From Methylovorus sp. MM2 (GTDB lineage: Bacteria; Pseudomonadota; Gammaproteobacteria; Burkholderiales; Methylophilaceae), in assembly GCF_001648895.1 (NCBI RefSeq), contig NZ_LXUF01000011.1, positions 1-64,000 of the forward strand: DNA of 64,000 nucleotides, read 5' to 3'. Under the pieces are notes generated by a model. That model worked only from the letters and a program-made list of their open reading frames with translations, was not told the origin of the DNA and did no database searches. The position numbers and the translations under genes were made by a program. Positions 11,360 through 41,746 of the stretch are shown here, in pieces. How positions within the stretch are numbered: the stretch's first letter is position 1; each line of letters begins with the position of its first letter.

Positions 11360-12453
11360 TGTACGAGTCAATACGTCCGACACAGGAAATCATCGAAGAA
11401 ATACGCCAAGGCCGCATGGTGATCCTAGTAGATGAAGAGGACAGGGAAAATGAAGGCGACCTCGTGCTCGCTGCTCAATTCGCTACGCCAGAACATATCA
11501 ATTTCATGGCAAAGCACGGGCGTGGACTGATTTGCCTGACGCTATCGGAAGCACGTTGTGAACAGCTTGACCTGCCACAGATGGTGCAGAAGAACGGCGC
11601 GCCACTTGGCACTGCATTCACTGTTTCGATAGAAGCCGCAGAAGGTGTGACGACAGGTATATCAGCGGGTGACCGAGCGCGTACCATTCAAGCCGCTGTC
11701 GCCAAAAATGCTAGCGCGAAAGACATTGTGAGCCCCGGGCATATATTTCCGCTCACCGCAGAAAATGGCGGTGTACTTGTACGTGCCGGCCATACAGAAG
11801 CAGGTTGCGACCTTGCGGCACTCGCTGGCTTCGAACCTGCATCGGTCATATGTGAGATATTAAAAGATGACGGTAGCATGGCACGCTTGCCAGATCTCAT
11901 GGAATTCGCAAAACAACATGAAATCAAGATCGGTACAATCGCTGACCTGATTCGCTATCGCAACGAGACAGAATGCTTAGTAAAACGTACAGCCGAACGC
12001 ACTATCGCAACCCCATATGGCAAGATGCGCCTGATCGCTTACAGTGACATCATCGCCAACGAGACACATCTTGCCTTAGTGAAGGGTACCCCAACTCCAG
12101 ATGTAGAGGTGCTTGTGCGTGTGCATGAACCACTTTCCGTGTTTGACTTACTGGACAGCTCCAGCCGTTCTCATTCATGGAATGCCTTAAAAGCCATGGA
12201 AACCATACAAAAATCCGAGTGTGGTGTGATCATTCTATTACGCGGAGAGGAAGACGGCGCAGGCTTGGTAAATCGCATACAACAGGCGGATGAACCGATC
12301 AGGCCTAAACAGGATTTACGTAATTATGGCATCGGCTCGCAGATATTGCTCGACCTCGGTGTACGCAAAATGAAACTGCTGGCAACGCCGAGAAAGATGC
12401 CAAGCATGGTCGGCTTCGGTCTAGAAGTGACAGGATATCTCGAAGCACCCTAA
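11359..12453 (+). CDS. ribB: 3,4-dihydroxy-2-butanone 4-phosphate synthase with degenerate GTP cyclohydrolase II-like domain (RibBX)
   Basis: The N-terminal domain (about 1-205) is a RibB, which makes the four-carbon unit of riboflavin from ribulose 5-phosphate. It shows the metal-binding [11 protein letters not shown] at 25-35 and [17 protein letters not shown] near 145. The C-terminal 160 residues resemble GTP cyclohydrolase II, including [17 protein letters not shown], but the zinc-binding cysteine cluster (normally ECLTGDVFGSxRCDCG) is replaced by [21 protein letters not shown] hydrolysis is therefore unlikely, and a separate RibA should exist elsewhere. This fits the known RibBX class, where the domain may modulate RibB. 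It is cotranscribed with ribE. Confidence 0.93.
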
Positions 12454-12507
12454 ACTCTACTTAAGAATATTGTCTATCCTAATGATTTTTATGAGATAAT
12501 ACGCGCC

Positions 12508-13068
12508 GTGGAAAATGTAAACTTTACTGGTCATTTTTTGATTGCGATGCCCGCAATGACTGACCCATATTTCGCAAAATCAGTTACCTATATCTGCGAG
12601 CATAACGCAGATGGCGCCATGGGGATTGTCATCAATCGCCCCATCGAAATGACGCATGATGCCCTATTCGGGCAAATCAATCTTAAGCTGAATGATAACC
12701 CTATCGCCAACCAGCCAGTTCATTTTGGCGGCCCTGTGCAGATAGATCGCGGCTTTGTGTTGCATCAACCTGCTGGTGAATGGCAGTCGACGATTGCCAT
12801 CGCTGGGGACATCGCACTGACCACCTCAAAAGATATTTTGGAGGCAGTGGCAAATGGCAGCGGCCCAGAGAAGATATTGATCACTTTGGGCTATGCTGGG
12901 TGGGCAGCAGGCCAAATAGAAAAAGAGATGGCAGCAAACGCCTGGCTGTCAGTACAAGCAGAAGACTCCGTCATATTCGACCTGCCAAGCGCAGAAAAAC
13001 TGACTGCTGCAATGGGTCTGTTGGGGCTTGATTTTGCCAGCCTTTCTGAAGAGGCTGGACATGCTTGA
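12508..13068 (+). CDS. yqgE: YqgE/AlgH family protein (UPF0301)
   Basis: A 186-residue cytoplasmic protein of the UPF0301 family. It has the family start ([21 protein letters not shown]) in split form and the segments [11 protein letters not shown] near 38 and FGGPV near 75. Its biochemical role is not established; AlgH was linked to alginate regulation in Pseudomonas. The start codon is GTG at 12508. It overlaps the start of ruvX by 8 nt and begins the yqgE-ruvX-pyrR-pyrB-pyrC' run, an order widely kept in beta- and gammaproteobacteria. Confidence 0.93.
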
Positions 13069-13603
13069 TATGGTCAGCATAAAACCTCAGCCCTCTATCG
13101 ATGCCACACTGCTCAAAACAATCAATAACGATCCATCCAAGCAATTAGCGCTTACCGCGCAAGGTACTGCCTTAGCCTTTGATTTTGGTGAAAAAAGAAT
13201 CGGTATTGCTATAGGTGAGCATCTGCTCGGCATCGCACACCCGCTCACCACAATAGATACTGAAGGCAATAATGAACGCTTCGAGCTCATCAGCAAGTTG
13301 ATTGCCGAATGGACACCTAGCGTGCTGATCGTTGGTTTACCACTCTCTATGGATGGGGAAGAACATGCGACTACCATGCTGTGTAAGAAATTCGCGCGCA
13401 GACTGGATGGCCGCTTTGATCTACCCGTTGTCATGATAGATGAACGATTAAGCTCCGCTGAAGCGAGCCAATCACTTAAAGAAGTCGGCATTGGCGGACG
13501 CAAACAAAAACCATTGATAGACCAAGTCGCTGCACAACATATATTGCAATCATATTTTGATATCGTCGCTAGCCACAATCCATTATCAGGAGCTTTGTCA
13601 TGA
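13061..13603 (+). CDS. ruvX: Putative pre-16S rRNA nuclease YqgF/RuvX with N-terminal extension
   Basis: An RNase H-like fold enzyme, thought to mature the 5' end of 16S rRNA. The core begins [16 protein letters not shown], carrying the first catalytic Asp, followed by GLPLSMDG and the DERLSS and [10 protein letters not shown] segments. I place the start at ATG 13061 (180 residues) because AGAGG lies 6 nt upstream and it overlaps the yqgE stop by 8 nt. This leaves about 35 residues before the core, which most relatives of 138-150 residues lack. An in-frame start at 13028 would overlap yqgE by 41 nt and is less likely. Confidence 0.92.
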
Positions 13604-14103
13604 AGCCCAACTTGCCGAATGCAGAAGCACTTTTGAGCGACTTGGCAATCCAGCTCAAACCACTCATCAAACCAGAAACAGCGCTCGTCGGCATCCATAG
13701 CGGTGGTGTTTGGCTACTTGACCGTTTACTGCCAATACTAGGTGCAGATATCCCGCATGGCGTACTGGATGTCTCGTTCTACCGGGATGATTTTCAACAA
13801 CGTGGATTACACACTGAACCCAAGCCTTCGCAGATCAACTTTGATGTAAAAGATCGGCACATCATTCTGGTCGATGATGTCTTCTACACAGGCCGCACTA
13901 TACGCGCGGCGATGAATGAGCTATTCGATTACGGCAGGCCGGCAAGCATCAGCCTAGCAGTGCTAGTCAATCGCGGCGGTCGGGAGTTACCTATCGCACC
14001 CCAGATCAGCACCTACGAGATCGACCTGCCAATAAATTCGAACCTACAACTGCTACGCAAGGAAGATGGTAGTTTTTATCTGCAACTGGAAGAAAGCGTT
14101 TAA
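13600..14103 (+). CDS. pyrR: Bifunctional pyr regulator / uracil phosphoribosyltransferase PyrR
   Basis: A 167-residue type I phosphoribosyltransferase fold with the PRPP-binding loop [19 protein letters not shown] at about 87-105. In Gram-positives PyrR binds pyr mRNA. In proteobacteria it often stands before pyrB and its regulatory role is less clear. It overlaps ruvX by 4 nt (ATGA) and its stop overlaps the pyrB start by 1 nt. I see no attenuator or PyrR-binding hairpin inside these tight junctions, so any RNA-level control would have to act upstream of yqgE. Confidence 0.95.
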
Positions 14104-15053
14104 TGCGTAATCCACAACTGACAAGTGACGGCAAACTCAAACATCTATTAACGATAGACGGGCTGCCAAGAAATATCCTTAACCAGATACTGGATACAGC
14201 GGAATCTTTTGTCGGTGTAGCAGAACGGGAAGTAAAAAAAGTACCTCTGCTGCGAGGCAAGACCGTCTGTAATATATTCTTTGAAAACAGTACGCGCACC
14301 CGCACGACGTTCGAGATCGCCGCCAAACGCCTGTCAGCTGACGTCATCAACCTCAACGTCAACACCTCTTCGCAAGCCAAGGGTGAGACGATTATGGATA
14401 CCATTGATAACCTGACCGCCATGCATGCAGACATGTTCGTTATCCGCCATGCCCAGTCAGGCGCGGCACACTTCATCGCCCAACATGTAGAACCACACAT
14501 TCACGTCATCAATGCAGGTGATGGTCGGCACGCACATCCCACACAAGGTTTACTGGATGTCTTTACAGTACGCCGTTACAAGCCAGACATGCATAATCTA
14601 CGCGTTGCCATCATTGGTGATGTGTTGCACTCCCGTGTCGCCAGATCTGAGATTCACGCACTTACCACGCTAGGCGTGCCAGAAGTCCGCGTGATTGCTC
14701 CCAAAACTTTACTACCCGCGCATGTTGAAAAACTGGGCGTTCATGTCTATCACGATATGAAAGAAGGCCTGAAAGATGTTGATGTCATCATGATGTTACG
14801 CTTACAGAACGAGCGGATGAACGGTGCCCTGCTGCCAAGCGCTCAGGAATACTTCAAATGTTTTGGCCTGACGCAGGAAAAACTCGCTTACGCAAAACCG
14901 GATGCCATTGTCATGCACCCCGGCCCAATGAATCGTGGTGTAGAGATAGACTCCGCTGTCGCAGATGGCAGCCAATCGGTCATCTTGCCGCAAGTCACCT
15001 ATGGTATTGCGGTGCGCATGGCCGTGATGAGCATCTTGGCGGGAAATAGCTAA
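14103..15053 (+). CDS. pyrB: Aspartate carbamoyltransferase catalytic subunit
   Basis: Condenses carbamoyl phosphate and aspartate in pyrimidine synthesis. Its 316 residues contain the carbamoyl-phosphate loop [13 protein letters not shown] near 60, [16 protein letters not shown] near 138, and [13 protein letters not shown] near the C-terminus. No PyrI regulatory subunit is present. It overlaps the next gene (pyrC') by 1 nt. In Pseudomonas PyrB forms a dodecamer with a catalytically dead PyrC', and the neighbouring gene here has the same inactivation. Confidence 0.97.
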
Positions 15054-16330
15054 TGAAAAAACTAATCAAGAATGGGCGTTTGATAGACCCGATCAACGGC
15101 ATAGATGCGATAAAAGATGTTTATATCGCTGCGGGCAAGATCGTAGGGATAGGCGACGAATTACCAGAAGGATTCATTCCAAACAAGATCATCGATGCTG
15201 CTGGCCTGATCGTCTGTCCGGGCTTGGTTGACCTGTCAGCTCGCTTGCGAGAGCCAGGCTTTGAATATAAAGCCACACTCGAAAGCGAGATGCGTGCGGC
15301 GACAGCAGGTGGCATCACTAGCTTAGCCTGCCCACCAGATACAGACCCTGTTCTGGATGAGCCGGGCTTGGTAGAGATGCTGAAACATCGTGCGAAGCAG
15401 CTCAACCTGACCCATGTCTATCCGCTGGGTGCACTCACGCGCCAGCTTGCTGGTAGCCAATTGACTGAAATGAGCGAATTGACCGAGGCAGGCTGCGTTG
15501 GCTTCTCACAAGCAGACATCGCCATTACCGATACACAAGTGCTATGGCGCGCCATGCAATATGCAGCCACCTTCGGATTCACCGTCTGGTTACGTCCAGA
15601 AGAGCATTATTTGGCTAAAGGCGGCTTGGCACATGATGGTGAAGTATCTGCCCGCTTGGGATTGAAAGGCATACCTGCAACAGCAGAAACCCTAGCGATT
15701 GCAACCATCTTGAGGTTAGCAAAAGATACTGGCGCAAAAGTACATTTATGCCGCTTATCTACCGCTGAAGGCGTCGATATGGTACGTGATGCGAAGCAAC
15801 AGGGCTTGGCGATCACTTGCGATATCAGTACCAACCACCTGCACTTGACCGAACATGATATTGGCTTTTTCGATGCAAACTTTCACCTTAAACCACCCCT
15901 CCGCAGCCAACGTGATAAAGATGCCCTAATTGCCGGACTGCGTGATGGCAGCATAGACGCTGCATGCTCCGACCATACACCAGTTGATGATGATGCGAAG
16001 TTACTGCCTTTTGGAGAGTCCGAAGCAGGCGCGACAGGGCTTGAGCTGATGTTGCCCCTCACCCTAAAATGGGCAAGCGAAAATAAAGTGCCATTAATCG
16101 ATGCGCTCACCCGTATCACCAGCGCACCCGCAAAGATACTAGGGATTGATGCCGGGCATCTCAGCTTGAATGCTGACGCAGATATTTGCATCTTCGACCC
16201 GGAACATTACTGGAAAATAGAGCCCGCAGCACTCATCAGCCAAGGCAAGAACAGCCCTTTCCTAGGATTAGAGCTAGCTGGCAAGGTACGTTACACGCTC
16301 GTCAACGGTCACTTGGTACATCAAGCATAA
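15053..16330 (+). CDS. pyrX: Dihydroorotase-like protein PyrC' (probably non-catalytic)
   Basis: A 425-residue amidohydrolase-fold protein similar to type I dihydroorotase. The metal-binding HxH of the N-terminal PGLVDxHxHLREPG motif is replaced: the sequence reads PGLVDLSARLREPG, with Ser62 and Arg64 where histidines belong. Other segments such as ACSDHTPVDDDAK and FGESEAGATGLELMLPL are kept. Such PyrC' proteins are structural partners that PyrB needs for activity. A functional PyrC must be encoded elsewhere. It starts at the overlapping TAATG of pyrB. Confidence 0.92.
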   Translation: MKKLIKNGRLIDPINGIDAIKDVYIAAGKIVGIGDELPEGFIPNKIIDAAGLIVCPGLVDLSARLREPGFEYKATLESEMRAATAGGITSLACPPDTDPVLDEPGLVEMLKHRAKQLNLTHVYPLGALTRQLAGSQLTEMSELTEAGCVGFSQADIAITDTQVLWRAMQYAATFGFTVWLRPEEHYLAKGGLAHDGEVSARLGLKGIPATAETLAIATILRLAKDTGAKVHLCRLSTAEGVDMVRDAKQQGLAITCDISTNHLHLTEHDIGFFDANFHLKPPLRSQRDKDALIAGLRDGSIDAACSDHTPVDDDAKLLPFGESEAGATGLELMLPLTLKWASENKVPLIDALTRITSAPAKILGIDAGHLSLNADADICIFDPEHYWKIEPAALISQGKNSPFLGLELAGKVRYTLVNGHLVHQA

Positions 16331-16333
16331 ACC

Positions 16334-16666
16334 ATGGATCTGCTCAAAACACTCATCTTATTCGTCGGCACCGCATTGGCCGAGATTATCGGCTGCTACT
16401 TACCTTACCTTTGGCTGAGAGAGAATAAGCCAATCTGGCTATTGATTCCGGCAGCCATTAGTCTGGCGATTTTTGCATGGCTGCTTACATTACATCCTCA
16501 AGCCAGTGGTCGTGTGTATGCAGCGTATGGCGGAGTGTATATTACGGTTGCACTAGGCTGGCTTTGGGCGGTTGATTCGGTCAAACCCAACCTCACAGAC
16601 TATATCGGTGTTGCATTCTGCCTGACAGGCATGGCGGTCATCATGCTAGGCTCCCGCAGCGCTTAA
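16334..16666 (+). CDS. ynfA: YnfA family small membrane protein (UPF0060)
   Basis: A 110-residue inner-membrane protein with four predicted helices, beginning [18 protein letters not shown]. The conserved [15 protein letters not shown] (residues 15-29) and [12 protein letters not shown] (about 59-70) are family signatures. It resembles small multidrug resistance proteins in size and topology, and some relatives have been linked to efflux, but the function here is not known. It starts 3 nt after pyrC' and ends 3 bp from the convergent pilU. Confidence 0.93.
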
Positions 16667-16669
16667 GCT

Positions 16670-17806
16670 TTACACAATCCCCAGCCCACCCAAGCCTGCT
16701 GCCAGATCTTTATCTTGTGCACCGTGCCCTTCAAGCTTAATCTTGAGACGTACATCATTGACTGAGTCCGCATTGCGCAATGCATCTTCGTAACTGATCT
16801 GTCCTGTTTCATGTAACTCAAACAAAGCTTGGTCAAAAGTCTGCATCCCTAGCTCTCTCGATTTAGACATGATTTCCTTGATCTCATGCACATCCCCCTT
16901 GAAGATGAGATCAGAGATTAATGGTGAATTCAGCATGATCTCCACCGCAGCAGCACGACCGACGCCATCGACTTTTGGAATCAAGCGCTGGGAGATGAAT
17001 GCCTTCACGTTCAGCGATAAATCCATCAACAACTGATGGCGGCGCTCTTCGGGGAAGAAGTTGATAATACGATCCAGTGCCTGATTGGTACTATTGGCAT
17101 GCAAAGTTGCCATGCATAAGTGCCCTGTTTCAGCAAAAGCAATCGCATAGTCCATCGTTTCGCGATCTCGTATCTCACCGATCAAAATCACATCCGGTGC
17201 TTGGCGCAATGTGTTTTTAAGTGCCGCAAACCAGTTATCAGTATCTACGCCGACTTCACGCTGCGTCACGATACAGTTCTTATGTTCATGTACAAATTCA
17301 ACAGGGTCTTCAATAGTAATAATGTGACCGTAACTATTTTCGTTACGGTAGCCGATCATCGCAGCCAAAGAGGTTGATTTACCAGAGCCTGTACCGCCGA
17401 CCAGAATCACTAAGCCACGCTTGGTCATCGCCACATCGCGTAATACTTCAGGCAGGTTCAATTCTTCAAACTTAGGGATCTTGGTTGTGATGGTACGGAA
17501 AACAAGACCTGTAGAGCCGCGCTGCACAAAAGCATTGACCCGGAAGCGGGCAACGCTTGGAATGCTGATAGCAAAGTTACATTCCCGTGTGGCATCGAAC
17601 TCAGACGCCTGTTTATCATTCATGATGGCACGCGCGATCTCACGCGCATGCTGGGCAGTGAGCGCTTGGCTAGTAACTGGCGTCATCTTGCCATCGATCT
17701 TCATCGCAGGGGGGAAACCAGCCGTGATGAACAAGTCGGAAGCGTTTTTCCCTATCATCATGCGTAATAAATCAAAAACGAATTTCTCTGCCTGACCTTG
17801 ATCCAT
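16670..17806 (-). CDS. pilU: Type IV pilus retraction ATPase PilU
   Basis: An accessory hexameric ATPase for pilus retraction. It has 378 residues with Walker A GGTGSGKST near 137, the Asp box ITIEDPVEFVH, the Walker B LIGEIRDRETMDYA and the His box TGHLCMATLHAN. It lacks the PilT AIRNLIRE motif, reading SPLISDLIFKGD there, which separates it from PilT. It follows pilT by 55 nt in the same direction. PilU usually needs PilT for function. Confidence 0.94.
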   Translation of the reverse strand: MDQGQAEKFVFDLLRMMIGKNASDLFITAGFPPAMKIDGKMTPVTSQALTAQHAREIARAIMNDKQASEFDATRECNFAISIPSVARFRVNAFVQRGSTGLVFRTITTKIPKFEELNLPEVLRDVAMTKRGLVILVGGTGSGKSTSLAAMIGYRNENSYGHIITIEDPVEFVHEHKNCIVTQREVGVDTDNWFAALKNTLRQAPDVILIGEIRDRETMDYAIAFAETGHLCMATLHANSTNQALDRIINFFPEERRHQLLMDLSLNVKAFISQRLIPKVDGVGRAAAVEIMLNSPLISDLIFKGDVHEIKEIMSKSRELGMQTFDQALFELHETGQISYEDALRNADSVNDVRLKIKLEGHGAQDKDLAAGLGGLGIV

Positions 17807-17861
17807 GATTTAACCCTGAGTTTTTATCTATTTTTAATTAATTTGAAGTGAGGAGCGATGA

Positions 17862-18905
17862 CTATCCGCCAAAAGTTTCTTTATTCGATGCTTTTGCGCG
17901 CGCTTCACCAATAGAGATGATGTTACGACGGACTAGATCCTGCAAATTCTGATCCAAGGTCTGCATCCCCACATTTTGGCCAGTTTGAATCGCAGAATAC
18001 ATCTGGGCGATCTTGTTTTCGCGAATCAGATTACGAATCGCAGGCGTACCAATCATGATCTCATGGGCAGCCACTCGGCCTTGTTCATCTTTGGTTTTAC
18101 AGAGCGTCTGTGAAATAACCGCACGCAACGACTCAGAAAGCATGGACCGCACCATTTCTTTTTCAGCAGCCGGAAATACGTCCACGATACGGTCAATCGT
18201 CTTAGCTGCTGAACTGGTATGCAAGGTACCGAATACCAAGTGCCCTGTTTCGGCAGCACTCAATGCCAAACGAATCGTTTCAAGATCCCGCATTTCACCA
18301 ACCAGAATCACATCAGGATCTTCACGCAATGCAGAACGTAGCGCGTTATTGAATGAGAGTGTATGTGGGCCAACTTCACGCTGGTTAATCAGGCATTTCT
18401 TGGAGGTATGAACAAATTCGATCGGGTCTTCAACAGTGAGAATATGCCCCATCTCATTTTCGTTAACATAGTCAACCATCGCAGCGAGCGTGGTTGATTT
18501 ACCTGACCCAGTAGGCCCAGTCACTAGCACGATACCGCGTGGATTTTGGGCAATATCTTTAAAAATGGGTGGGCAGCCAAGCTGCTCCATGGAAAGAATC
18601 TTGGATGGAATCGTCCGGAAGACAGCACCAGAACCTCGATTCTGGTTAAAAGCATTCACACGGAAACGGGCTAGATTAGGAATCTCAAATGAGAAGTCAC
18701 ACTCAAGCGTCTCTTCATATACCTTGCGCTGGCCATCATTCATGATGTCATACACCATGTCATGCACTTGGCTATGATCCATCGATGGCAAGTTAATCTT
18801 ACGTATATCCCCATGCACACGGATCATTGGAGGCAACCCTGCTGACAGATGCAAGTCAGATGCTTTATTTTTGACCGAAAATGCCAGTAAATCTGAAATA
18901 TCCAC
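17862..18905 (-). CDS. pilT: Type IV pilus retraction ATPase PilT
   Basis: Disassembles the pilus fibre to drive twitching and DNA uptake. It has 347 residues, with Walker A GPTGSGKSTT near 130, LTVEDPIEFVH, the Walker B ILVGEMRDLET and the C-terminal TPAIRNLIRE motif that is diagnostic for PilT. It is divergent from yggS (56 bp between start codons), a common proteobacterial arrangement. It heads the pilT-pilU pair. Confidence 0.96.
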   Translation of the reverse strand: MDISDLLAFSVKNKASDLHLSAGLPPMIRVHGDIRKINLPSMDHSQVHDMVYDIMNDGQRKVYEETLECDFSFEIPNLARFRVNAFNQNRGSGAVFRTIPSKILSMEQLGCPPIFKDIAQNPRGIVLVTGPTGSGKSTTLAAMVDYVNENEMGHILTVEDPIEFVHTSKKCLINQREVGPHTLSFNNALRSALREDPDVILVGEMRDLETIRLALSAAETGHLVFGTLHTSSAAKTIDRIVDVFPAAEKEMVRSMLSESLRAVISQTLCKTKDEQGRVAAHEIMIGTPAIRNLIRENKIAQMYSAIQTGQNVGMQTLDQNLQDLVRRNIISIGEARAKASNKETFGG

Positions 18906-36787: not shown

Positions 36788-37858
36788 CTAAAAGTGTCCT
36801 TTTATACCATCTTGTAGAACCATTACATTAAAACCCAAATTAATCAAAATGAATGCGGCCGCGCTACTCCTTCGACCACTGTGGCAATAAACAATATATT
36901 GCTTATGCCTATCTAATTTATACGCTTCTGTACGAATAAGATTTAATGGTAAATTCACTGCATTAGATTGATGATAAAAATCAAACTCTGATGAAAGGCG
37001 AACATCTAACCAAATTGCCCCATTAGCGACCTGAGAAGTAGCATCTTGTAATGAGATCTGATTAATTAGCGGTGCTTTTAATAGCTCAACAAAATCTTTC
37101 TTATTAAGTCTTAATAGCACACCATCTGTGTTCATGGTAATACTGGCATTCCTTTTATTCTCTGAGACCAAAGCTTCTTCGCCGAAAGTATCGCCTGATT
37201 CTAGCTGCGCTAAGACTAACGGAGGCTGACCAGCTTCAATAATACGGCTGACAACTGCTATACCACTTTCAATCAGGTAATAATAATCCCCTTCAGCGCC
37301 TTGCTTAATAATAACTTGACCCGCTTTTACATTGACTGAAGTCATACGACGAAACATCTCATCAATATTGGCTGTCGGTAGTCGGCTAAACACACCGCTT
37401 TGGAGCTTGGAAGCACTGAAGGCGCCTGTATTATTCATCCATGCGCTTGCACCACGGCCCTGAGCATATTGCTCCGTTTTTTCCAGAGGCTTTTCAAAAT
37501 CAGCAAGCTGATCCCAAGTCATCATGATGTCCAATAGATCCAAGTCAATCCGGATGATTTCAATATCAGTCAGCGCTATGGTGTTTTGCAAACCATTTCG
37601 ATTAGCGTCAATTGGATGCTTTGCAGCTTCTCCACCGCCTCGCATGACTTTTTTTGTGCCATCGGCAAACTGCAATCCAAGCTCACCTTGGATAAGATAA
37701 ATTGATTGGGCACTTTTAGTGATGTTCATCCTTAAGGGATCAATATCCTTACTGACTTTTTCAACGAAGCATAATCCGGCTAACTCTTTAAGTCGGCCTG
37801 CGGATAGTGTAGATATAGGCTCTAATTGAGCAATGAGGGAGGTTTCAACTGATGCCAT
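36788..37858 (-). CDS. Cyclic nucleotide-binding domain protein fused to rhodanese
   Basis: A 356-residue soluble protein. Residues 10-115 look like a degenerate cyclic-nucleotide-binding fold without a phosphate-binding cassette. Residues 150-265 are a canonical CNB domain with the cassette FGEEAL at 225-230, Glu227 for ribose and Arg236 for phosphate. Residues 270-356 are a rhodanese domain with the active loop YCHSGRRSS, Cys325 being catalytic. It probably senses the cAMP controlled by the two upstream genes and changes sulfur transfer or partner binding. It is the third gene of the cAMP operon, 48 nt after the phosphodiesterase. The output is unknown. Confidence 0.9.
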   Translation of the reverse strand: MASVETSLIAQLEPISTLSAGRLKELAGLCFVEKVSKDIDPLRMNITKSAQSIYLIQGELGLQFADGTKKVMRGGGEAAKHPIDANRNGLQNTIALTDIEIIRIDLDLLDIMMTWDQLADFEKPLEKTEQYAQGRGASAWMNNTGAFSASKLQSGVFSRLPTANIDEMFRRMTSVNVKAGQVIIKQGAEGDYYYLIESGIAVVSRIIEAGQPPLVLAQLESGDTFGEEALVSENKRNASITMNTDGVLLRLNKKDFVELLKAPLINQISLQDATSQVANGAIWLDVRLSSEFDFYHQSNAVNLPLNLIRTEAYKLDRHKQYIVYCHSGRRSSAAAFILINLGFNVMVLQDGIKGHF

Positions 37859-37906
37859 GTGAATGTTTATCTTCCGGACTTGAGTCAGCCATTATCGTAA
37901 CCTATT

Positions 37907-38671
37907 TTAAAGCTCAAAAATCTGCATATTTTTTATAGCATCTGGTTTGATTGCAAGCTGACTTTGCTCGAACTCACGCATAATGACTTCGCCTTCACCA
38001 GGTTTGAGGTGGGTAATGTAAATTTCTGCTGGTCGTTTGAGTTTTTTAAGTTCTTCGATCAGCAACGATGGTGATAAATGCTTGGATAATCTAGCTAATG
38101 CGATCTCACCGTCACCGAATGCAGTTTCAATAATCACATACTTCAGGTTTTCAATCTTATTTACATGCTCCCACAGGGCATCGCATGTGGTGGTGTCTCC
38201 ACTAAATACGAGACTATTTTGACCACTATCCAGACGATATCCTACGGCAGGCACCGTATGATTTGCAGGGAGTGCAGTAATTGTACGGTCACCAAGCGTG
38301 ACTGATTGACCAATGGCAATTTCCTGATATTGAAGAAAAGGCGTTTTGGCATCAGGAATCACATTAAAGTCAGGCCATATTTTCCAATTGAATATATGCT
38401 CACGAAGCGTATTGATGGTCTCAATCGTCGCATGGAGTGTCACTGGGTTAGGACGCAAGCCCATGACGGTATCAAGCAAAAATGGAATGGACGCGATATG
38501 ATCAAGATGTGAATGTGTCACGAAGATGTGGTCGATCTTGCATAATTCATCAATAGACAAATCACCAACACCAGTGCCTGCGTCAATCAGAACATCGTCA
38601 TCAAGCAAGATGGATGTCGTACGCAATCCGTTGCCTATACCACCGCTACAACCTAGAATTTTTACCTGCAT
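37907..38671 (-). CDS. Class II cyclic-nucleotide phosphodiesterase-like metallo-hydrolase
   Basis: A 254-residue metallo-beta-lactamase fold protein. The metal motif is THSHLDHIASIPF (H53, H55, D57, H58), with later NHTVPAVGY, FSGDTT and THLKPGE supplying the other ligands. The HxHLDH arrangement and overall layout match class II cAMP phosphodiesterases (PDE1 type). It probably hydrolyses the cyclic nucleotide made by the cyclase located 13 nt upstream. Alternative: a general MBL-fold hydrolase; the gene context favours the phosphodiesterase. Confidence 0.85.
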   Translation of the reverse strand: MQVKILGCSGGIGNGLRTTSILLDDDVLIDAGTGVGDLSIDELCKIDHIFVTHSHLDHIASIPFLLDTVMGLRPNPVTLHATIETINTLREHIFNWKIWPDFNVIPDAKTPFLQYQEIAIGQSVTLGDRTITALPANHTVPAVGYRLDSGQNSLVFSGDTTTCDALWEHVNKIENLKYVIIETAFGDGEIALARLSKHLSPSLLIEELKKLKRPAEIYITHLKPGEGEVIMREFEQSQLAIKPDAIKNMQIFEL

Positions 38672-38684
38672 TAATTACAGCCCA

Positions 38685-40922
38685 TTATTTGCTCTCATGC
38701 GTAAATACACCATCCCAATTACTCGCTACAGGGTTTTGTCTGAAGTAAGTGATGCGCTCAAGATATATTTGGTATAAATAACGCTGCGGATTAAGTTTTT
38801 GTAAATTTAGAAATTGGATTTCCGCCAGATCCCAATTTTGGGCGCGATATAGCTTGAGAGCCTCACGGTAGAACTTGAGTTCATCCTTAATCGCTTTATC
38901 TTCTGTCCCGGCTTCGCAAATAGGCTCATAAATCGTGACTGGCTTGTCTTTACCCTTAACACGCACTAAATCGAGTTCTCGATAGATATATTCAGGTACT
39001 TGGTCTTTGGTATATTCACTAACAATAATGTAGACGCCATAATTTTTCGTGAGACTCTCAAGTCTGGACCCCAGATTCACGGCATCGCCCATCACGGTAT
39101 ATGCCATACGAAATTCAGAGCCCATGTTGCCGACGGTCATTTCGCCAGTATTAAGCCCAACACCGATCTTGATCTCTGGCCACCCTCTTGCTTTGAACTC
39201 CACCTGTAGCTTACTCAAGCTTTCCATCATGCCCATCGCAGCATCAAGTGCGTGTTTCGCATGTTTTGCATCGTGCAAAGGTGCCCCCCAGAAAGCCATG
39301 ATGGCATCACCCATATATTTATCGATGGTGCCACGACTGTGGTGAATCACATGCGTCATCGGCGTCAGGAATTCATTCATCAATTGAGTGAGTTGTTTAG
39401 GATCAAGGCCCTCGGATATCGTCGTAAATCCACGGACATCAGAGAAAAGCACGGTCAATTCACGGCTCTCGCCTTCCAGACTGAATGCTTCCGGATTTTT
39501 AGACATTTCATCAACCAATTCAGGAGGCACATATTGCCCGAACAAACCCGCCAGTTGCCGTTTTCCACGTGACTCAACAAAGAACCCGTATGACATATTG
39601 AGAACGTAAATCAACCCAATCATGATTAAGAGCGATGCTAGTGGTAGTACTAGATTGCCAAACTGCCATACAGCCAGATTAAATAAAACCGTGAGAATGA
39701 AAACACCAGCAGTTAATGCAGTTGCCTGTAACGGATTAAGAATAGGTAGCAAGATTGCTAACAACAAACCAATAAGTAACAGCAAAATGAATTCGGCCCC
39801 CATCGTATACGCAGGGCGCTCTTTGATATTGTTATCCAAAATACCGGCAATCATATTGGCGTGAATCTCTACCCCGGGATAGATGTTCTGCACAGGGGTG
39901 GCGCGCAAATCCATTAAGCCGGGTGCTGTCGTACCTAACAAGATGATTTTATCTGCCAACACCTCTGGGGGAACCTTGCCGTTAAGTACATCACTTGCCG
40001 AGACATAAGGGAAACTATTTTGTGGGCCACGATATGGGATAAGCGCTGCTACTTGGGCATCGACAGGGATTCGTCTATCCGCAAGCTTTAACCACTCAAG
40101 CCCTGCATACCGGCTACCGACTCCAAAACCCTCGGCAAACTGTGCCTGTAATTTGGGCTGTCCCAATGCAACACGAGCGACAGCAACCGATAATGCTTCA
40201 TACAGGTCACCTTTGTGACTCATTAACATAGGTACTTTACGCGAAATACCGTCAGCATCCGGGTCAGGGTTAAAGTGCCCTGCGGTTAAGGCATTTTCTT
40301 GCAGAATCGGCAGGTTGGCACCAAAGCTTGTGACTTCTGTGAAATTGATACTCTTGCCTTTGAAGCTACCATCGACGAATGATGGTGAAGGAAGCGCACC
40401 AACACCTTCATTGCCATCTATATCCTGCCTAAAATAATACCCTAGGACAACATTACGCCCCTTTAAGCTATCAGCGAAAACCTGATCATAATCAAGCTGT
40501 GGTTTGATATCGGAAAGTACCTGATTAAAACGCTCATCTGTACTTAAATATTTTTTCTGCAGAGTCTCAAGGTTTTTTAGGCCAGAACTATCATCCGTCT
40601 CGGCAAAGACCACGTCAAAGCCCATGACTTTTACTTTGTACTGATCAAAAAGCCGATTGACCAGATCCGCCAGCTTATTTCTACCCCAAGGCCAGCGGCC
40701 TTGCTCTTGCAAGCTCTTTTCATCAATATCGACAATGACGATACGGCTATCTTGCCCACGTGGCATCAATAGATTCAAACGGACATCATAAGTAAAGTTT
40801 TCTAGGCGGGGAATAAACCCCAGATGAAAGACTTCAGCAGTATTCAGCAACAACAGAATAACGACGATCAGGCTTAAGCCGATACGAACAGCATGACGAG
40901 TAAATATTTCGGAAAAGTGCAT
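38685..40922 (-). CDS. CHASE2-domain class III adenylate cyclase
   Basis: A 745-residue membrane enzyme. One N-terminal helix (12-30) leads to a CHASE2 sensor domain outside the membrane (about 40-365), then three helices (about 375-445) and the catalytic domain (about 485-660). Metal-binding Asp495 and Asp539 are in FSDVRGF and KYMGDAIMAFWG. Lys535 and Thr609 occupy the base-recognition positions, a Lys/Thr pair typical of class IIIb adenylate cyclases, and Asn616 and Arg620 stabilise the transition state. A TPR-like tail of 80 residues follows. It heads the cAMP operon, with a CRP-type palindrome 97 bp upstream. Confidence 0.92.
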   Translation of the reverse strand: MHFSEIFTRHAVRIGLSLIVVILLLLNTAEVFHLGFIPRLENFTYDVRLNLLMPRGQDSRIVIVDIDEKSLQEQGRWPWGRNKLADLVNRLFDQYKVKVMGFDVVFAETDDSSGLKNLETLQKKYLSTDERFNQVLSDIKPQLDYDQVFADSLKGRNVVLGYYFRQDIDGNEGVGALPSPSFVDGSFKGKSINFTEVTSFGANLPILQENALTAGHFNPDPDADGISRKVPMLMSHKGDLYEALSVAVARVALGQPKLQAQFAEGFGVGSRYAGLEWLKLADRRIPVDAQVAALIPYRGPQNSFPYVSASDVLNGKVPPEVLADKIILLGTTAPGLMDLRATPVQNIYPGVEIHANMIAGILDNNIKERPAYTMGAEFILLLLIGLLLAILLPILNPLQATALTAGVFILTVLFNLAVWQFGNLVLPLASLLIMIGLIYVLNMSYGFFVESRGKRQLAGLFGQYVPPELVDEMSKNPEAFSLEGESRELTVLFSDVRGFTTISEGLDPKQLTQLMNEFLTPMTHVIHHSRGTIDKYMGDAIMAFWGAPLHDAKHAKHALDAAMGMMESLSKLQVEFKARGWPEIKIGVGLNTGEMTVGNMGSEFRMAYTVMGDAVNLGSRLESLTKNYGVYIIVSEYTKDQVPEYIYRELDLVRVKGKDKPVTIYEPICEAGTEDKAIKDELKFYREALKLYRAQNWDLAEIQFLNLQKLNPQRYLYQIYLERITYFRQNPVASNWDGVFTHESK

Positions 40923-41018
40923 AGGTAATTGTTATAGTGGTTATAATTCCCTGATTTATTTCAAGAGCATATAGCAAAATTACAGCGTTTAACAGCATTG
41001 TGTTTATGGATATTTCAC

Positions 41019-41040
41019 TTCTGTGAAGTAGCTCACAGAA
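41019..41040. promoter_or_regulatory. CRP-type palindrome in the cyclase/esterase divergent gap
   Basis: The 22-bp sequence has perfect 8-bp arms TTCTGTGA and TCACAGAA with a 6-nt centre. It contains TGTGA-N6-TCACA, the exact consensus for CRP/Vfr-type regulators. Its centre is 33 bp before the esterase start and about 107 bp before the cyclase start on the other strand. No crp gene is in the window. Function is inferred from the motif and from the adjacent cAMP genes. Confidence 0.65.
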
Positions 41041-41062: not shown

Positions 41063-41746
41063 ATGACACAAACCCTCGAAAAAATAGAAATTGAAACATC
41101 AAGCCATGTGCGTTCAAGCGTGATTTGGCTACACGGATTAGGGGCTGATGGTCATGACTTTGAAGCTGTAGTCAGGCAACTAGAAATACCAAATACGCGT
41201 TTTATACTTCCCCATGCACCTTATCGAGCGATTACCCTCAACAATGGTTATGAAATGCGAGCTTGGTATGATCTATTCGGGCTAGAGCTTGGGAGCCCGC
41301 AAGATGAAACTGGCATCCGCGCGACAGAAACAGTGATTGCTGAGTTAATCAATCAGGAAATCGTGCGTGGGATAAAAGCAGATCAAATTATCCTCGCTGG
41401 TTTTTCGCAAGGCGGCGCGATTGCCTTGCATACGGCGCTGCGTTATCCAGAAAAACTAGCAGGTGTATTAGCGCTCTCTACGTATCTACCGCTTCAGCCA
41501 ACACTTGAAAAAGAAATGCATGCAGCAAATGCCGATACTCCGATATTCATGGCACATGGCACATTTGACTCGGTCATCACGCTGGATCGATGTAAGGTCT
41601 CTAAACACGCACTTGAAGCGCATGGTTACACACTCGAATGGCATGAGTATCCGATGGCACACTCAGTATGTATAGAAGAGCTTGCTGACATTCGTCACTT
41701 TCTTTTAAAAACCCTAGCTCTTAAAAACACTGACATGATCGATTAA
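41063..41746 (+). CDS. Alpha/beta hydrolase, carboxylesterase/phospholipase family
   Basis: A 227-residue hydrolase with the oxyanion motif WLHGLGADG near 23, the nucleophile motif LAGFSQGGAIAL (Ser in GFSQG) near 115, the catalytic Asp in AHGTFDSVI and the His in YPMAHSVCIEE. It belongs to the carboxylesterase (EstB/YpfH, Abhydrolase_2) group, which cleaves short acyl esters or acyl-proteins. It is divergent from the adenylate cyclase gene, and a CRP-type site lies 23 bp before its start codon. Confidence 0.9.
   Translation: MTQTLEKIEIETSSHVRSSVIWLHGLGADGHDFEAVVRQLEIPNTRFILPHAPYRAITLNNGYEMRAWYDLFGLELGSPQDETGIRATETVIAELINQEIVRGIKADQIILAGFSQGGAIALHTALRYPEKLAGVLALSTYLPLQPTLEKEMHAANADTPIFMAHGTFDSVITLDRCKVSKHALEAHGYTLEWHEYPMAHSVCIEELADIRHFLLKTLALKNTDMID

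Follow-up and report, generated by a model that had tools for sequence, protein, structure and literature searches.

A perfect CRP-type palindrome beside a CHASE2 adenylate cyclase operon in Methylovorus sp. MM2: a candidate cAMP feedback site

The window analysed here is a 64,000-nucleotide stretch of DNA from Methylovorus sp. MM2. Three reverse-strand genes form a putative cAMP operon. The first (38685-40922) encodes a 745-residue protein with CHASE2 and class III adenylate/guanylate cyclase domains (Pfam CHASE2, 1.5e-62; Guanylate_cyc, 4.3e-23). The second (37907-38671) encodes a 254-residue metallo-beta-lactamase-fold protein that matches class II cAMP phosphodiesterases (PDEase_II, 7.3e-15; Lactamase_B_2, 4.2e-21) and scores far under the NCBIfam cut-off for a cyclic nucleotide-degrading phosphodiesterase. 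The third (36788-37858) specifies a 356-residue protein with cNMP-binding and rhodanese domains (1.5e-19 and 3.1e-11). On the forward strand, a 227-residue phospholipase/carboxylesterase (Pfam Abhydrolase_2) is encoded at 41063-41746. Of 14 relatives checked, most have the cyclase-phosphodiesterase pair, in many cases followed by the cNMP/rhodanese gene as the third, and the positions of the esterase gene and ispA are also unchanged in the nearest family relatives.

A divergent gap of 140 bp separates the cyclase ATG (40922, reverse strand) from the esterase ATG (41063, forward strand). A preliminary description of this DNA had placed a perfect CRP-type palindrome in the gap, and direct reading of the sequence agrees. 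The 22 bp at 41019-41040, assigned to neither strand, are TTCTGTGAAGTAGCTCACAGAA; that is, TTCTGTGA-AGTAGC-TCACAGAA, with perfect 8 bp arms and a 6 bp spacer. Inside lies the CRP core TGTGA-N6-TCACA (41022-41037), made of two inverted TGTGA half-sites 6 bp apart. The palindrome is approximately 100 bp ahead of the cyclase ATG, and the esterase ATG is 25 bp beyond the core. The core sequence has one exact match in the window. Dinucleotide-shuffled windows contained 0.05 matches on average, and 5 of 100 had one or more. Hence, the earlier figure of 0.06 chance matches per 64 kb was right. Perfect inverted repeats with 8 bp arms and a 6 bp spacer occur three times in the window and so are not rare. 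The unusual part of the palindrome is the CRP core, not the inverted repeat as such.

Upstream of the cyclase gene, the sequence TATGCT (40966-40971, reverse strand) is retained in most family relatives and is the likely −10 element of the operon. Alignment also identified a conserved TGTTAA at the −35 position (40989-40994, reverse strand). This is 17 bp from the −10 and a poor match to TTGACA; an automatic sigma-70 scan of the cyclase upstream region called no promoter. The distance from the palindrome centre to the first base of TATGCT is 58 bp. Reckoned from this inferred −10, the site would be centred at about −70.5. For E. coli CRP, class II sites are found near −41.5, and those of class I near −61.5, −71.5 and additional whole turns upstream. 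Hence, with the inferred −10 as reference, the palindrome has a promoter-compatible position, one suited to activating the cyclase in class I fashion.

The genome encodes two proteins with an HTH_Crp_2 domain. One (C11:170653) has a sub-threshold cNMP domain and a recognition helix lacking the R-E residues. The other, of 235 residues (G000:C16:185434-186138; L192:4932-5639), has cNMP_binding and HTH_Crp_2 domains that are both above cut-off, and is the one full candidate for a cognate CRP-type regulator with an RE-type recognition helix. In its N-terminal cNMP-binding domain (PF00027), the FGE...RT motif aligns with that of Mycobacterium tuberculosis CRP, and the FGE, RT and TN pair pocket motifs are all kept. 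The Crp-type helix-turn-helix (PF13545) has R-E at the TGTGA-contacting positions; the recognition helix reads SRESVNK, compared with SRETVNK in M. tuberculosis CRP. Thus, the preliminary description's call for a CRP homologue is answered by one protein with a TGTGA-reading helix and a cAMP-type pocket. From the recognition-helix and pocket residues, we infer that this protein reads the palindrome. No recognisable site lies ahead of the regulator's own gene, and autoregulation was rejected on this ground.

The solved chains nearest to the regulator are M. tuberculosis CRP (1.6e-32) and Corynebacterium glutamicum GlxR (~1e-30). E. coli CRP (~1e-20) and Vfr (2.9e-15) are more distant. The earlier label "CRP/Vfr-like" therefore holds for the CRP family, and Vfr is a less apt comparison than M. 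tuberculosis CRP or GlxR. The protein scores 89.6 bits against NCBIfam NF008732 (enterobacterial-type CRP), for which the cut-off is 266. Hence, judged by sequence, it is a CRP-like regulator and not a CRP orthologue in the strict NF008732 sense.

GlxR and the M. tuberculosis CRP, Rv3676, resemble the regulator in recognition-helix residues and cAMP-pocket motifs, and share the target core TGTGA...TCACA (PMC4254451, PMC4005916). Conversely, the regulator described here is betaproteobacterial and the similarity is remote. The GlxR consensus is TGTGANNTANNTCACA (PMC4254451), and the palindrome has TA at its centre. The E. coli CRP consensus is TGTGAnnnnnnTCACA; Rv3676 reads a very similar one and depends on cAMP weakly (PMC4005916).

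The preliminary description had suggested comparing the 22 bp among close relatives, and would have taken a lack of conservation as refuting the site. The palindrome was absent from every relative examined, comprising the cyclase upstream regions of 39 loci and further relatives. These include the nearest of those compared (G001), where the cyclase is 81% identical and the core promoter is conserved, and G014, with a cyclase 73% identical. The relatives compared are all from other genera, and it is within the genus that conservation would count. This lack of conservation takes away phylogenetic support for the site. It is no refutation, since the regulator is likewise missing from the relatives checked. 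Among 187 genomes of the family, only three others had a regulator match at E <= 1e-25, with 27-36% identity; the best match outside the family is 47% identical. In G001 and G014, the HTH_Crp proteins recovered, which are part of the HTH_Crp matches of those genomes, have no FGE/R pocket motif. Among the genomes compared, only the lineage of strain MM2 has the palindrome, and the same holds for its likely reader.

In the MM2 genome, the regulator gene is flanked by a type I secretion HlyD gene and a glycosyltransferase gene. In another relative (G016, L283), the corresponding two genes are neighbours with 40 bp between them, and the HlyD gene is 77% identical. Insertion of the regulator gene in the MM2 lineage or its loss in G016 would each account for this, and the wide absence of the regulator in the family favours insertion. 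The cyclase operon (36788-40922) is retained in relatives that yielded no CRP of this type.

Our best explanation, to which we give about an even chance, is that the palindrome is a CRP-type site through which cAMP feeds back on the cyclase operon, probably by activating it. The CHASE2 cyclase would make cAMP and so load the CRP/GlxR-type regulator. A regulator dimer would then bind the palindrome, some 70 bp upstream of the predicted cyclase transcription start, and touch RNA polymerase from a class I position. The outcome would be increased transcription of the cyclase-phosphodiesterase-cNMP/rhodanese operon. The resulting feedback loop would be buffered, because the operon itself carries a likely phosphodiesterase. 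Four elements of the scheme are directly established: the palindrome, the gene for a compatible regulator, a core cyclase promoter that is conserved, and a spacing that suits class I. The transcription start, binding, dependence on cAMP and sign of the effect are what we infer from them. The feedback proposed in the preliminary description thus gains an encoded regulator and class I spacing to a conserved promoter, and loses the expectation of a conserved 22 bp. As a feedback site, it seems to be ordinary and of recent origin, not conserved.

As a kind of system, CRP-type regulation of genes for cAMP turnover is well known. Vfr of Pseudomonas aeruginosa directly controls the phosphodiesterase gene cpdA, and the cyclases were found to be under no appreciable Vfr control (PMC13001225). 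This pairing of a CRP-family regulator with a cAMP turnover gene is a close functional parallel to the one predicted here from sequence. Conversely, the Methylovorus site precedes a cyclase, and the likely phosphodiesterase is second in the same operon. In Sinorhizobium meliloti, CHASE2-domain adenylate cyclases feed the CRP-family regulator Clr (PMC13001267). The predicted pairing here is alike in these two components, with the candidate site at the promoter of the CHASE2 cyclase. Literature searches found nothing on cAMP/CRP in Methylotenera, or on cyclase genes under positive feedback by CRP.

The palindrome may instead be an inverted repeat that arose by chance or is under no selection, lying in an A+T-rich gap and read by no regulator. 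We consider this unlikely. The palindrome is lineage-specific and, as described above, one of three such repeats in the window. The genome-wide picture also leaves room for chance. Exact TGTGA-N6-TCACA sequences number five in the genome, compared with one for the reversed control; they lie upstream of a TonB receptor gene, upstream of a PAS-GGDEF gene, in the cyclase-esterase gap and, in two cases, within coding sequence. Summed over 61 related genomes, there are 114 exact sites against 56 for the control, and six genomes have at least five. This approximately two-fold excess is general, and extends to genomes without the 235-residue regulator. Hence, the genome-wide count is weak evidence, and we rejected it as proof of function. 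Against chance, the CRP core has a probability of only ~0.05 per window, which is lower still for one gap before a cAMP operon. Furthermore, a compatible regulator is encoded and the spacing to the conserved −10 suits a class I position.

The same CRP-type regulator could also act as a repressor, either by blocking a divergent esterase promoter or by restraining the cyclase in a negative feedback. This is unlikely. Since the core ends only 25 bp ahead of the esterase ATG, a bound dimer would cover any usual esterase promoter, and the palindrome would sit under or beside it. However, a scan of the gap recognised no esterase promoter, and there is no positive evidence for the regulation of the esterase gene claimed in the preliminary description. 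Repression of the cyclase is opposed by the location of the site, which lies ~58 bp ahead of the −10 without overlapping it. Very improbable is the remaining alternative, in which the palindrome serves some other dimeric regulator or acts as a hairpin in the leader RNA of the esterase gene. The LexA (CTGT-N8-ACAG), FNR and NtcA patterns are missing from the gap. In its favour, the RNA folds into an 8 bp stem (-10.9 kcal/mol, z -1.80), which is only modestly better than shuffles, lacks a T-run and is absent in relatives. The palindrome contains CTGT-N10-ACAG, the spacing of which is unsuited to LexA; FNR and NtcA sites were likewise rejected.

Other CRP-type sites in the genome may belong with the proposed cAMP feedback. 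At the exact site upstream of the PAS-GGDEF gene (L194:3991; G000:C16:132490), a perfect TATAAT is found at class II spacing (−41.5). In this way, cAMP may be linked to cyclic di-GMP. Elsewhere, two tandem genes (L280:6200-11092 and 11363-17977; G000:C1) encode proteins of 1630 and 2204 residues with similar C-termini and RTX-type repeats, a label read from the sequence and not from a Pfam scan. Each has a CRP-type site with one mismatch 84-89 bp ahead of its ATG. For the first gene, a TATAAT is found at a spacing of −42.5. For the second, there is only TCTTAT at −41.5, which did not pass the scan. The frequency of TATAAT is 4.0e-4 per upstream position. For 15 site-gene pairs and 4 positions, ~0.02 perfect TATAAT sequences are expected at class II spacing and two were seen, in a comparison made post hoc, after the sites had been seen. 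These coincidences are no more than suggestive.

Counting against the best explanation, along with the low NF008732 score and the missing site at the regulator's own gene, sites with one mismatch were not clearly richer in intergenic DNA than control sites. Among the matches listed (50 of a total of 61), 14 were intergenic, compared with 6 of 35 controls, where genes were taken as the longest open reading frame only and significance was judged by eye. A refined consensus, TGTGARCTAGYTCACA, was also rejected. All four sites within two mismatches of it are upstream of genes; the consensus was built from those same sites, so the argument is circular, and overall the consensus is rarer than its reversed control.

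We offer a wider reading of the proposed feedback site tentatively, as a doubtful possibility. The regulator would have been horizontally acquired, inserted between the type I secretion and glycosyltransferase genes, and would have captured an older CHASE2 cyclase-phosphodiesterase operon, kept in relatives without such a regulator. The new palindrome would then have closed a cAMP loop, linking cAMP to a diguanylate cyclase and to RTX-repeat secreted proteins. To known cases, the site adds a concrete and testable candidate feedback loop in a lineage whose relatives have the cyclase operon but no recognisable CRP of the kind described here. If true, the loop would illustrate on a small scale how a regulator new to a lineage can take control of a second-messenger operon already in place. 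It also raises the question of what reads cAMP in the relatives; one candidate is the cNMP-rhodanese protein of the operon.

Two unrelated genomes, G040 (L196:3978) and G027 (L198:3961), each of which carries a relative of the regulator, share an identical 16-mer, TGTGAAATATCTCACA. It lies upstream of a secreted-protein-like gene in G040 and a pstS-like gene in G027, and is one base away from the site upstream of the TonB receptor gene in the Methylovorus sp. MM2 genome.
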